DNA of 64,000 nt from an uncultured Bacteroidota bacterium. Its GTDB lineage: Bacteria > Bacteroidota > Bacteroidia > Flavobacteriales > Flavobacteriaceae. Below the pieces are notes generated by a model. That model was given only the letters and a program-made list of their open reading frames with translations, ran no database searches and was not told where the DNA came from. The position numbers were made by a program, and so were the translations under genes. Within the stretch, counting starts at the first letter, position 1, and each line of letters begins with the position of its first letter. The stretch covers positions 1-64,000 of the forward strand of contig CABZAD010000006.1 in the NCBI GenBank assembly GCA_902523665.1, in the 5' to 3' direction. Positions 43,703 to 47,758 of this stretch are shown piece after piece.

Positions 43703-43732
43703 TTTGAAATAAATTTTTTTTGTTTAATTTTA
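43703..43732 (+). promoter_or_regulatory. Possible promoter of the met operon (TTTG-N18-TAATTTTA)
   Basis: TTTG (43703-43706) and TAATTTTA (43725-43732, one mismatch) are 18 nt apart. Transcription would start near 43738, just before the riboswitch P1 stem. Spacing and -7 are imperfect. Confidence 0.4.
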
Positions 43733-43740
43733 CTTTAAAC

Positions 43741-43791
43741 AGAGGAAGGATTTGACTGATTGCAACCTCTTAAAAAAATTGCTAAAGCAGT
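43741..43791 (+). ncRNA. SAM-II-type riboswitch upstream of metK
   Basis: P1 stem AGAGG (43741-43745) with CCTCT (43766-43770). The loop contains GATTTGACTGATTGCAA, very close to the SAM-II core (GAUUU, then UUGCAA). An A-rich linker leads to GCTAAAGCAGT (43781-43791), matching the conserved GCUAAA end. ACTG (43755-43758) pairs with CAGT (43788-43791), giving the expected H-type pseudoknot. It lies 48 nt before metK, and the operon makes SAM and its precursor, so the biology fits. No terminator follows, so the mechanism of control is unclear. Confidence 0.8.
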
Positions 43792-43839
43792 AATTCTTTT
43801 ACCTGCAATCATTCACTTTTTTTCTCAGAAATCTATTTT

Positions 43840-45093
43840 ATGTCGTATTTGTTTACCTCTGAGTCTGTGAGTGAAGGACACCCTGATAAAGTTTCAGATC
43901 AAATAAGTGATGGAATACTTGATAACTTTTTAGCTTTTGATCCTAATAGTAAAGTTGCTTGTGAAACTCTTGTAACTACTGGTCAGGTTATACTTTCAGG
44001 TGAAGTAACAAGCAATACCTATATAGATGTTCAAGAAATTGCAAGAAATATTATAAAGGACATTGGTTATAATAATGATAGGTATAAATTTTCTGGGGAA
44101 TCATGTGCAGTTATGTCATTAATTCATGAACAATCAGAAGATATTCTTAGAGGAATAAAAAGAAGCGTAAAAGAAGAACAAGGAGCTGGTGATCAAGGAA
44201 TAATGTTTGGTTATGCATGTAATGAAACTGAAAATTTAATTCCTTTAACTCTGGACATTGCAAATAGACTTTTACTAGAGCTATCAAAACTCAGAAAGTC
44301 TAAAGAAATTCCATATTTAAGACCAGATTCAAAATCTCAGGTAACTATAGAGTATGACGAAAACGATGTACCTGTAAGCATAGATACAATTGTTGTATCA
44401 ACTCAACATGATGAATTCGACAGTGATGATGAAAAAATGTTAAATAAAATAAGAAAAGACATAGTTGAAATTCTGATTCCAATTGTGAAAGATTCTTATG
44501 ACCCTGAAATACAAAAATTATTTAATAATAATATTAAATTCTACGTTAATCCAACAGGAAAATTTGTCATTGGTGGTCCTCATGGTGATACTGGCTTAAC
44601 TGGTCGAAAAATTATAATTGATACATATGGAGGGAGAGGAGCGCATGGTGGAGGATCTTTTAGTGGAAAAGATCCAAGTAAAGTTGACAGAAGTGCAGCA
44701 TATGCTGCAAGACATATTGCAAAAAATTTAGTTAAGGCTAGAGTATCTGATGAAATATTAGTTCAACTTAGCTATGTTATTGGAGTTGCTGAACCGGTAT
44801 CACTAAATATAGATACTTGCGGTAAGTCCAAAATTAAAATTTCAGATTCTGAGCTATCGAAAATTATAAATGAAATTTTTGATTTGAAACCTCATTCGAT
44901 AGAATCAAGATTTAAACTTAGAGATCCTATTTATCTTGAAACTGCATCATATGGTCATATGGGTAGAAAATCTGAAAAAAAAACTAAGACATTTAACTCT
45001 AAATACTCGGGAGTTAAAAAAATTGAGGTTGAGCTTTTCCCTTGGGAAAAATTAGAGTATGTGAATCTATTAATTAAAACACTTAAATTATGA
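43840..45093 (+). CDS. metK: S-adenosylmethionine synthetase
   Basis: 417 residues. Makes SAM from methionine and ATP. TSESVSEGHPDKVSDQISDGILD (ATP and metal), GAGDQGIMFGYA, and FVIGGPHGDTGLTGRKIIIDTYGG with GGGSFSGKDPSKVDRSAAY are the three family blocks. First gene behind the SAM-II-like element; it overlaps metY by 4 bp. The operon metK-metY-metX-osmC covers homoserine activation, sulfhydrylation and SAM formation. Confidence 0.97.
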   Translation: MSYLFTSESVSEGHPDKVSDQISDGILDNFLAFDPNSKVACETLVTTGQVILSGEVTSNTYIDVQEIARNIIKDIGYNNDRYKFSGESCAVMSLIHEQSEDILRGIKRSVKEEQGAGDQGIMFGYACNETENLIPLTLDIANRLLLELSKLRKSKEIPYLRPDSKSQVTIEYDENDVPVSIDTIVVSTQHDEFDSDDEKMLNKIRKDIVEILIPIVKDSYDPEIQKLFNNNIKFYVNPTGKFVIGGPHGDTGLTGRKIIIDTYGGRGAHGGGSFSGKDPSKVDRSAAYAARHIAKNLVKARVSDEILVQLSYVIGVAEPVSLNIDTCGKSKIKISDSELSKIINEIFDLKPHSIESRFKLRDPIYLETASYGHMGRKSEKKTKTFNSKYSGVKKIEVELFPWEKLEYVNLLIKTLKL

Positions 45094-46361
45094 GTCAAAA
45101 TGATCAAACGCTGGCATTACATGCCGGGCATAACACGACAAAAACAGAGGGAACTAGAGCAGTCCCAATATATCAAACAACATCATATGTGTTTGAAGAC
45201 ACTGACCATGCAGCAAAATTATTTTCACTTGCTGAACCTGGGTATATTTATACAAGACTTAACAATCCTACAGCAGATGTGCTTGAACAAAGGTTAGCAT
45301 CTATAGAAGGTGGAATAGCTGCCGTTGCAACTTCGTCTGGTTCTGCAGCTTTAGCAACAACATTATTGACACTTTTGAAGACTGGAGATCATATTGTTTC
45401 TTCAAACAGTCTTTATGGAGGTACATATAATTTATTAAATGTAACACTTCCTAGGTATGGAATCACAACAACTTTTGTTGATCCAAATAAAGTTGACAAT
45501 TTTTCTAAAGCAATCAATAAAGATACAAGAGCAATTTACATTGAGAGTATGGGAAATCCAAAGTTAGATGTTCTTGACATCGAAGCAATTTCAAAAATTG
45601 CAAAAAAAGCAAAGCTCCCACTAATTGTTGATAACACTGTTGCTACTCCATATTTGCTAAAACCAATAAATTATGGTGCTGATATTGTTATTCACTCAAC
45701 AACTAAATACATTACAGGTAATGGAACCTCAATTGGGGGTGCAATAATAGATGCAGGTAATTTTGATTGGAGCAGTGGATTATTCGATGAATTTACAGAA
45801 CCATCCCCAGGGTATCAAGGTTTAGTTTATCATGATGTATTAGGTCCAGCGGCATTTATTGCTAAAGTTAGGATTGAAGGATTGAGAGATCTTGGAAGTG
45901 CACCAAGTCCTTTTAACTGTTTTCAAACAATTCAAGGATTAGAGACTTTATCTGTTAGAATAAAAAAACATTCTGAAAATGCATTAAAGGTTGCAAAATG
46001 GTTAGAGAATCAATCTCAAGTGGCTTGGGTTAATTATCCAGGGCTTAAATCCTCAAGATATTATAAATTGTCACAAAAATATTTGAAAAATGGTCAAAGT
46101 GGTATTGTAACATTTGGTTTAAAAGGTGGATTTGATTCTGCAAAAAAATTAACTGATAGCACTAAAATATTCTCGCTATTGGCCAATTTTGGAGATTCGA
46201 AGTCTTTAATTATACACCCTTCAAGTACTACTCACCAACAATTAAATGAAGAACAACAAAAGTCAACGGGTGTGACGTCTGATTTGGTTCGACTGAGTAT
46301 TGGCCTTGAAGATCCAATTGATTTAATTGAGGACTTGCAGAATGCCATAAAATCATTGTAA
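45090..46361 (+). CDS. metY: O-acetylhomoserine aminocarboxypropyltransferase (sulfhydrylase)
   Basis: 423 residues, Cys/Met metabolism PLP family. Direct sulfhydrylation of O-acetylhomoserine to homocysteine. HAGHNTTKTEGTRAVPIYQTTSYVF at the N-terminus, TSSGSAALATTL (PLP phosphate), IVDNTVATPYLLKP, and VIHSTTKYITGNGT (Schiff-base Lys) are diagnostic; the length over 400 favours MetY over cystathionine enzymes (about 380). The substrate is supplied by MetX encoded next. Confidence 0.93.
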   Translation: MSQNDQTLALHAGHNTTKTEGTRAVPIYQTTSYVFEDTDHAAKLFSLAEPGYIYTRLNNPTADVLEQRLASIEGGIAAVATSSGSAALATTLLTLLKTGDHIVSSNSLYGGTYNLLNVTLPRYGITTTFVDPNKVDNFSKAINKDTRAIYIESMGNPKLDVLDIEAISKIAKKAKLPLIVDNTVATPYLLKPINYGADIVIHSTTKYITGNGTSIGGAIIDAGNFDWSSGLFDEFTEPSPGYQGLVYHDVLGPAAFIAKVRIEGLRDLGSAPSPFNCFQTIQGLETLSVRIKKHSENALKVAKWLENQSQVAWVNYPGLKSSRYYKLSQKYLKNGQSGIVTFGLKGGFDSAKKLTDSTKIFSLLANFGDSKSLIIHPSSTTHQQLNEEQQKSTGVTSDLVRLSIGLEDPIDLIEDLQNAIKSL

Positions 46362-46364
46362 AAT

Positions 46365-47330
46365 TTGAAAGATGATTTAAAAAAGATATTAATTGAAGAT
46401 TTTGAATCCTCATCTGGTAAGAAACTTCAAAATCTTAAATTAAGCTATCAATTTTTTGGGAAAAGATTTGGAACTGCTCCAATTATTCTTATTAATCATG
46501 CATTAACTGGAAATTCTATAGTATCTGGAAAGGACGGATGGTGGAGTGAAATTGTTGGAATAAATAGGGCAATTGATCTAAATAAATTTACTGTGCTTTG
46601 TATTAATATTCCAGGAAATGGGTTTAATGAAGAAAACTTTAATTTCAGCATTGAATTAGACTTAGGAGATGTAGCACATATTTTTGTTAAGGCTTTAAAT
46701 AAATTAAAAATTTCAAAATTATATGCTATAATCGGTGGATCAATTGGAGGATGTTTAACATGGGAGATGGCTGCAATAAAAAATGATATTGCAGAGAAGA
46801 TTATTCCTGTAGCTTCGGATTGGAAAGCAAATGATTGGTTAATAGCAAATACTTTTTTACAAGATAGAATTTTAGAAAATTCAAAAAATCCTATAGGAGA
46901 TGCAAGAATTCATGCAATGACATTCTACAGAACACCTGAGTCTCTTAATCAAAGATTCACGCGATCTAAGAATATTGAAAAAGGAATGTATAATGTTGAA
47001 TCATGGCTCGATCACCATGCGATAAAACTTAATCAAAGGTTTAGCCTTAACTCTTATAAATTTTTAAATAAGCTTTTAAGATCTACTGATATTACAAGAG
47101 ACGATTCAATATTAGAGTCAAAAATTATGCCTTCAAAATCAGAGATTCATATAATTTCAGTTGATTCAGATATTTTTTTCTTACCTCATGAAGATAGAAT
47201 CACTACTCAAAGGCTCAAAAAACAAAAAGTTAAAATCAAAAATCATGTGATAGAATCAATTCATGGTCATGATGCATTTTTAATTGAAACAAAACAAATT
47301 TCGGATATCTTTACTAAAATTTTAACATAA
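46365..47330 (+). CDS. metX: Homoserine O-acetyltransferase (alpha/beta hydrolase type)
   Basis: 321 residues, TTG start 3 bp after metY. INHALTGNS, GWWSEIVGINRAID and CINIPGNGF shape the substrate pocket; the nucleophile Ser is in IGGSIGGCLTWEMA. Asp and His of the triad are in ISVDSDIFFLP and HGHDAFLIE. It acetylates homoserine with acetyl-CoA. Shorter than many MetX (about 350-380), mainly in the lid region. It overlaps the OsmC gene by 1 bp. Confidence 0.9.
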   Translation: MKDDLKKILIEDFESSSGKKLQNLKLSYQFFGKRFGTAPIILINHALTGNSIVSGKDGWWSEIVGINRAIDLNKFTVLCINIPGNGFNEENFNFSIELDLGDVAHIFVKALNKLKISKLYAIIGGSIGGCLTWEMAAIKNDIAEKIIPVASDWKANDWLIANTFLQDRILENSKNPIGDARIHAMTFYRTPESLNQRFTRSKNIEKGMYNVESWLDHHAIKLNQRFSLNSYKFLNKLLRSTDITRDDSILESKIMPSKSEIHIISVDSDIFFLPHEDRITTQRLKKQKVKIKNHVIESIHGHDAFLIETKQISDIFTKILT

Positions 47331-47758
47331 TGGCAATTTATTTAGACAGAATTAATGACAAGTATTTATTTGAACTTTCAAATGAAAATGGACATAAAGT
47401 TTTACTGGATCGAAAATATTCTCAAGATTATAATGTACAAGGTGCAAGTCCTATGGAGCTTTTACTAATGGGAGTTGCTGGTTGTAGTAGTATTGATGTT
47501 ATATCAATATTAGAAAAACAAAAGCTTGACCCAGATTCATATAAAATGGAGGTTGAAGGGGAAAGAGAGTCTAAACCAGGAAAACCATGGAAAAAAATAC
47601 ATGTCAAGTTATATATTGAGGGAAATATTCCTAGTAGTAAAATTGTTCGTGCCGCAGCGTTGAGTTTTGATAAATATTGTTCAGTTTCAAAGAACCTTGA
47701 GAAGTCAACTTTAATTGAGCATTCAATTTATCTCAACGGTTCCTTAATTAAAAAATAG
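47330..47758 (+). CDS. OsmC-family protein
   Basis: 142 residues. MELLLMGVAGCSSIDVISILEKQ carries the first reactive Cys, and FDKYCSVSKNL the second, the thiol pair that reduces organic hydroperoxides in OsmC/Ohr proteins. Its position as last gene of the methionine operon is unexplained; protection of thiol intermediates is one possibility (inference). No terminator is visible directly after it. Confidence 0.87.
   Translation: MAIYLDRINDKYLFELSNENGHKVLLDRKYSQDYNVQGASPMELLLMGVAGCSSIDVISILEKQKLDPDSYKMEVEGERESKPGKPWKKIHVKLYIEGNIPSSKIVRAAALSFDKYCSVSKNLEKSTLIEHSIYLNGSLIKK

Follow-up and report, generated by a model that had tools for sequence, protein, structure and literature searches.

SAM-II riboswitches are classed in reviews as acting by direct occlusion, with the Shine–Dalgarno (SD) sequence lying within the pseudoknot (PMC10907184). 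In the metX/Sargasso Sea example (PDB 2QWY) and in metA of S. meliloti, it is an SD inside the aptamer that is occluded (PMC10907184, PMC9373788); the other platform type described for the class is the intrinsic terminator, which accompanies SAM-II aptamers in alpha- and beta-Proteobacteria (PMC2258182). The form first defined in 2010 from Bacteroidetes and marine sequence, under the name 'SAM-II long loops' (RF01726; Weinberg et al. 2010, PMC2864571), is represented by a model that ends at the aptamer. How might such a switch work where there is no SD to be hidden? In Flavobacterium, initiation takes place without an SD, and is tuned by the structure around the start codon and by A-rich bases upstream of it (PMC6847099). 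SAM-II serves as the standard example of direct SD occlusion, and yet it is nearly universal at metK in the Flavobacteriaceae, a family whose mRNAs are without an SD.

We consider here one such leader, in a 64,000-nucleotide stretch of DNA (the window) from an uncultured member of the Flavobacteriaceae, a small-genome (streamlined) representative of the Bacteroidota. It resembles the published RF01726 loci in aptamer sequence and fold, in its Bacteroidota host and in having methionine/SAM genes downstream, and in the aptamer itself there is no difference; what the RF01726 model does not cover is a strand further downstream that is complementary to the aptamer, and which we term the anti-aptamer. 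The ligand-binding architecture is shared with the metX/Sargasso Sea and metA aptamers, and repression by SAM is to be expected, but this leader has no SD, its start codon is 45 nt downstream of the aptamer, and a separate anti-aptamer strand would compete with the aptamer. With the proteobacterial terminator-linked examples it shares the aptamer class but not the terminator, which is absent here and from 161 related leaders. Neither of the described SAM-II platforms applies to this leader. There is also a likeness to the sequester/antisequester translational riboswitches (PMC10907184), in which, as proposed here, mutually exclusive helices set access to the start site, but in the window the alternative helix would be an almost complete antisense of the aptamer strand, and the part to be hidden would be a start region lacking an SD. 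We think it likely that metK-metY-metX-osmC is governed by a SAM-II riboswitch in its leader, with the anti-aptamer as the expression platform. No description of this Bacteroidota platform was found in a literature search that covered the main text of open-access papers, so its novelty is provisional.

The aptamer, its promoter and its operon

A sequence-only reading of this DNA had placed a SAM-II-type riboswitch at the head of metK-metY-metX-osmC, and this is now backed by the covariance model, by the identities of the genes and by conservation. In the Infernal/Rfam check proposed with that reading (a cmscan of the 64-kb stretch against all of Rfam, from which the E value in Table 1 derives), the leader aligned over the full RF01726 model (1–60), with no non-standard pairs flagged and with a score far over the gathering threshold. 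The elements that had been named were all found at 43741–43791: P1, the GATTTGAC...TTGCAA core, GCTAAAG and the ACTG/CAGT pseudoknot. P1 covaries among the relatives, being GAGG/CCTC in 168 loci, GTGG/CCAC in 32 and AAGG/CCTT in one. Score and covariation both go against the refutation put forward with the sequence-only reading, which was a sub-threshold score combined with a lack of covariation in related genomes. The P2 pseudoknot (loop ACTG with 3' CAGT), present in the window, is ACTG/CAGT in 105 loci, TCTG/CAGA in two and ACAG/CTGT in locus L214, and its outermost pair is not strict, since TCTG/CAGT or ACTG/CAGC occurs in some loci. Because of the RF01726 match, the occurrence in related genomes and the covariation of P1, the aptamer can be regarded as an unremarkable representative of an established class, and it would be expected to bind SAM. 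It is the single copy in the genome: the next-best match reached 20.6 bits, and the remaining 33 weak matches (at most 20.6 bits, E at least 0.1) are noise.

Table 1. Features of the metK leader and operon (positions in the window)
Feature	Position	Strand	Basis or comment
Putative Bacteroidota-type promoter, TTTG (43703-43706) and TAATTTTA (43725-43732)	43703..43732	+	Sequence; genus conservation
SAM-II aptamer (RF01726)	43736..43795	+	80.8 bits, E 3.9e-14, gathering score 44
P1 5' strand, GAGG	43742..43745	+	Partner of 43766-43769; GTGG/CCAC is the covarying form in relatives
P1 3' strand, CCTC	43766..43769	+	Covariance model and covariation in relatives
GCTAAAG (from 43781) and CAGT (43788-43791), pseudoknot 3' strand	43781..43791	+	Sequence, covariance model and comparison with relatives
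Anti-aptamer, TGCAATCATTCACTTTTTTTCTC	43804..43826	+	Colinear reverse complement of 43742-43764
TTCACT (43812-43817) and CTCAGA (43824-43829), possible 5' arm of OFF hairpin	43812..43829	+	Minimum free energy (MFE) fold without the aptamer; weak
metK, methionine adenosyltransferase	43840..45093	+	TIGR01034, 506.8 bits (cut-off 309.4)
metK codons TCTGAG (43858-43863) and AGTGAA (43870-43875), would-be 3' arm of OFF hairpin	43858..43875	+	Weak
metY, O-acetylhomoserine aminocarboxypropyltransferase	45090..46361	+	TIGR01326, 632.6 bits (cut-off 495.1)
metX-like homoserine O-acyltransferase, TTG start	46365..47330	+	Alpha/beta hydrolase fold, PF00561
OsmC-family protein	47330..47758	+	PF02566, 69.6 bits

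The metK and metY genes overlap by ATGA, and the best model for the metX-like product is MetX (169 bits, under that model's cut-off of 331). A deoxynucleoside kinase gene (dNK; PF01712) lies upstream of the aptamer on the opposite strand, and the order dNK / metK-metY-metX-osmC-pheA-tyrA is kept across the genus. In one locus (L296:1556-1673, genome G303) metY is absent between metK and metX, the other operon genes being intact. Among the relatives is the uncultured Bacteroidetes AG-912-I19 (L038), with 87% MetK identity.

The candidate promoter of the sequence-only reading, with a start just before P1, is plausible: TAATTTG ... TAATTTTG/TACTTTTG is conserved at equal spacing in 23 loci of the genus. 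These boxes fit the Bacteroidota-type promoter, with a -7 box TAnnTTTG, from which the window's own -7 box deviates at the final base. The putative promoter would set the start of the transcript 0–6 nt before P1. The single plus-strand match to a sigma-70 type promoter (43752–43779) falls inside the aptamer and is attributed to chance, the Bacteroidota-type boxes fitting better.

The distribution given for SAM-II in the same reading (mainly Alphaproteobacteria and marine metagenomes, with some Bacteroidota) was incomplete. RF01726 scores above the gathering threshold in 276 of the 301 genomes of the family and in 22 of the 25 of the genus (several of which are incomplete). The metK genes of Bacteroidales (Alistipes, Barnesiella, Odoribacter and Muribaculaceae) are also preceded by SAM-II, with P1 GTGG/CCAC for GAGG/CCTC. 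Among the 172 SAM-II loci of the family, metK was recognized downstream by a sequence motif in 161, and later inspection added two more.

A complement of the aptamer in the leader

The 48-nt gap between aptamer and metK ATG (43840) was as the sequence-only reading had described it, but that reading had missed the complement of the aptamer which lies within the gap. Twenty of the 23 positions of 43804–43826 pair without a bulge with 43742–43764 (three of them as G-U), giving a duplex of -23.0 kcal/mol (z -5.6) which none of 100 shuffles equalled. The MFE structure of the leader alone is one long hairpin between the 5' half of the aptamer and this same strand (-27 kcal/mol, z -3.4, with 1 of 200 shuffles equally good). 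The two folds are mutually exclusive, because 43804–43826 competes with P1, the core and the loop strand of the pseudoknot. The RNAalifold consensus of 14 loci of the genus picks the anti-aptamer hairpin. A single compensatory pair occurs, in L130; the hairpin's pairs are otherwise mostly invariant, so the genus alignment alone says little about covariation. The predicted anti-aptamer in the window's leader is, in our view, well supported.

In the wider family, we oriented the 172 SAM-II loci and compared the duplex energy of the aptamer 5' strand and its own leader with that of dinucleotide shuffles. Over 167 loci the median z was -2.84, with 70% under -2, compared with -0.70 and 20% for the rest of the aptamer. 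For the 161 metK loci it was -2.83, with 73% under -2 (about 27% thus failing that level), and in the same loci the 60 nt preceding the aptamer gave +0.25 (3% under -2) and the first 60 nt of metK +0.30 (2%); Bacteroidota metK leaders without a detected SAM-II gave +0.25 (n = 17). When aptamer and leader were folded together, three strands that bind SAM, GATTTGAC, TGATTGC and GCTAAAG, were paired with the leader to fractions of 0.68, 0.60 and 0.54, compared with 0.37, 0.24 and 0.21 in shuffles.

Leaders are matched to their own aptamers. With one locus taken per distinct aptamer strand (n = 45; L211, L026 and L151 are examples), the leader fitted its own strand better than a foreign one by 2.33 kcal/mol (0 of 5000 permutations, sd 0.32); in L211, for instance, the unusual aptamer strand AATAATTTGGTCTGATTGC is matched by GCAATCTGACCAAATTATT in the leader. 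Where P1 has GTGG, the leader has TCCAC in seven loci and TCCTC in one, and where it has GAGG the corresponding counts are one and 22 (Fisher 2e-5, a value that ignores relatedness, these and all our other counts coming from related, non-independent loci). The register of the complement differs by lineage (GCAATC.. for the genus of the window, GTCAAATC.. for the majority of the family and AATCCTTC.. for L134 and L135), but complementarity to one and the same aptamer strand is kept despite these shifts. Many leaders (among them L035, L168, L180, L209 and L281) also hold CTTTAGC, the complement of the pseudoknot strand GCTAAAG, and therefore mirror most of the aptamer in reverse order. Complementarity is weaker in Bacteroidales (median z -1.5, 31% under -2), and for this reason we do not claim the anti-aptamer for the whole phylum; the Bacteroidales figures rest on named loci, and the phylum-wide sample, which is mostly of one class, says little there.

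A proposed link from the anti-aptamer to the start codon

The proposed switch would run as follows. The mRNA would begin a few bases before P1. At low SAM, 43804–43826 would pair with 43742–43764 in the long hairpin, destroying P1 and the binding site and leaving the A/U-rich start region (43827–43842) open, so that metK would be translated. With SAM bound, the P1/pseudoknot fold would hold the 5' strand and release the anti-aptamer; the freed strand, or adjoining leader, would then fold over the start region and lower initiation at metK, and probably at metY too, through the ATGA overlap. It is most likely on the start of translation that the anti-aptamer acts, and we infer that SAM lowers metK expression.

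The start region was examined by folding energies that omit the pseudoknot and SAM. Of 138 family loci, 74 are predicted to need over 1 kcal/mol more to open -12..+12 with the aptamer out of play (SAM-bound) than with it paired to the leader, the difference being below -1 in five; within the genus opening is costlier in the OFF state in 13 of 23 loci and the reverse in one, and for the window the predicted values are 1.5 (ON) and 5.5 (OFF). As the ON hairpin reaches to -14, a footprint taken from -15 or -20 reverses the sign of this effect in the window and genus. Compared with shuffles, the opening energy of the SAM-bound start region was not higher (z about 0), and only the ON state was distinctive, in being more open.

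What might cover the start codon seems to differ between lineages. The cleanest version of the switch is that of about 20 relatives in which a hairpin of 8–12 bp joins the sequence directly after the pseudoknot to bases 1–7 nt before the AUG, with the anti-aptamer mostly in its loop and with compensatory changes (GTTGCTTTTA/TAAAAGCAAC, TTTACTTTTTAG/CTAAAAAGTAAA and GGCTTTGCAA/TTGCAAAGTC). This hairpin was sought in the window's genus and is absent there (leader self-fold z 0.16). The partner of the freed strand in this genus may instead be the metK coding sequence. In the window the predicted pairs between leader and coding sequence are CTCAGA/TCTGAG with TTCACT/AGTGAA, and other loci have CTCAC/GTGAG, but set against shuffles this pairing is weak, with z at -2.1 in the window and a median of -0.8 in the genus.

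Could the complementarity be no more than a chance product of a U/C-rich leader opposite a purine-rich aptamer strand? Both are indeed biased in composition, and the P1 segment taken alone is barely above shuffles (0.65 versus 0.54), but the dinucleotide shuffles, the test with foreign strands and the controls (upstream DNA, coding DNA and leaders free of SAM-II) rule this out as a general account, and we regard it as extremely improbable. Among functional alternatives the least improbable, though still unlikely, is control of transcription, in which SAM would free the strand for Rho loading or some other stop before or inside metK, and pairing with the aptamer would hide it. The freed strand is suitably C/U-rich and G-poor, and many SAM-II elements beyond the Bacteroidota are tied to transcription termination (PMC2258182, PMC6061858). 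The window's leader, however, lacks a terminator, as the sequence-only reading had noted, and the 161 related metK leaders hold none either, with 3.5 expected by chance; moreover, the covarying hairpin close to the start codon in about 20 relatives points towards translation.

Direct occlusion, with the bound pseudoknot covering the ribosome site and the complement merely tuning SAM affinity or folding kinetics, has in its favour that it is the described mechanism of SAM-II at the level of translation (PMC10907184, PMC9373788). It would have to operate over the 45 nt that separate aptamer and AUG in the window (40–113 nt in relatives), and the only known case of such distant control, metA of S. 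meliloti (PMC9373788), relies on an SD inside the aptamer, which is unavailable here: the window's leader offers no SD for occlusion, and only two of the 161 related metK leaders have SD-like sites. We judge this reading to be distinctly less probable than transcriptional control. Less probable again is an effect on mRNA stability, by which the long ON hairpin, which would sit a few nucleotides from the 5' end, would protect the transcript, and the SAM-bound form would be cut in the freed U-rich strand; SAM-II of S. meliloti does alter mRNA stability, but in the opposite direction, SAM there being stabilizing (PMC9373788).

Returning to the anti-aptamer platform acting on translation, we may speculate further, with a good deal of doubt, that SAM-II loci of the Flavobacteriaceae, and probably of Bacteroidota more widely, share a hitherto undescribed platform for SD-less mRNAs in which the leader is antisense to the aptamer (5' strand, core and often GCTAAAG), and that the metK codons GTGAGTGAAGG of the window's genus mimic GAGGAAGG of the aptamer, so that a single leader strand would alternate between the two and thereby expose or close the start codon. 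If this platform with its anti-aptamer is real, it shows a way for riboswitches to govern translation where an SD is lacking, it implies that the regulatory half of SAM-II varies between phyla while the sensor is constant, and it makes a precise, mutable prediction in the culturable Flavobacterium. The conserved complement of the aptamer suggests a route for switches in bacteria that have neither SD sites nor terminators at such positions.

Other SAM-II arrangements among the relatives

In the Bacteroidales loci L070, L081 and L090, GCTAAA is only about 5–8 nt before the metK start, and a leader-sized space is absent; such organisms may have a direct-occlusion arrangement. Some SAM-II elements precede genes other than metK: metY in L034 and L163, a gene for a DUF6580 membrane protein in L158, and in L258 the N-terminal portion of metH, which encodes the homocysteine methyltransferase. 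A second SAM-II element precedes a QueF-like gene (PF14489, 73 bits) in L300:1517-6189 (G306:C39), and also in L012, L140, L143 and L159. QueF carries a catalytic Cys motif, and at the expected site of this motif the QueF-like protein of these loci reads GVYEQPDF, so that it is Cys-less; in L300 its gene is followed by those for a DUF6580-like protein and MetH-like proteins, in what would be a methionine operon under SAM control. Finally, in the Flavobacterium-like SAM-II copies of L277–L286 the loop that separates P1 from the pseudoknot holds an extra hairpin or two. Their aptamer matches are 100–117 nt long, and in these loci too the leader's complement to the aptamer is kept.
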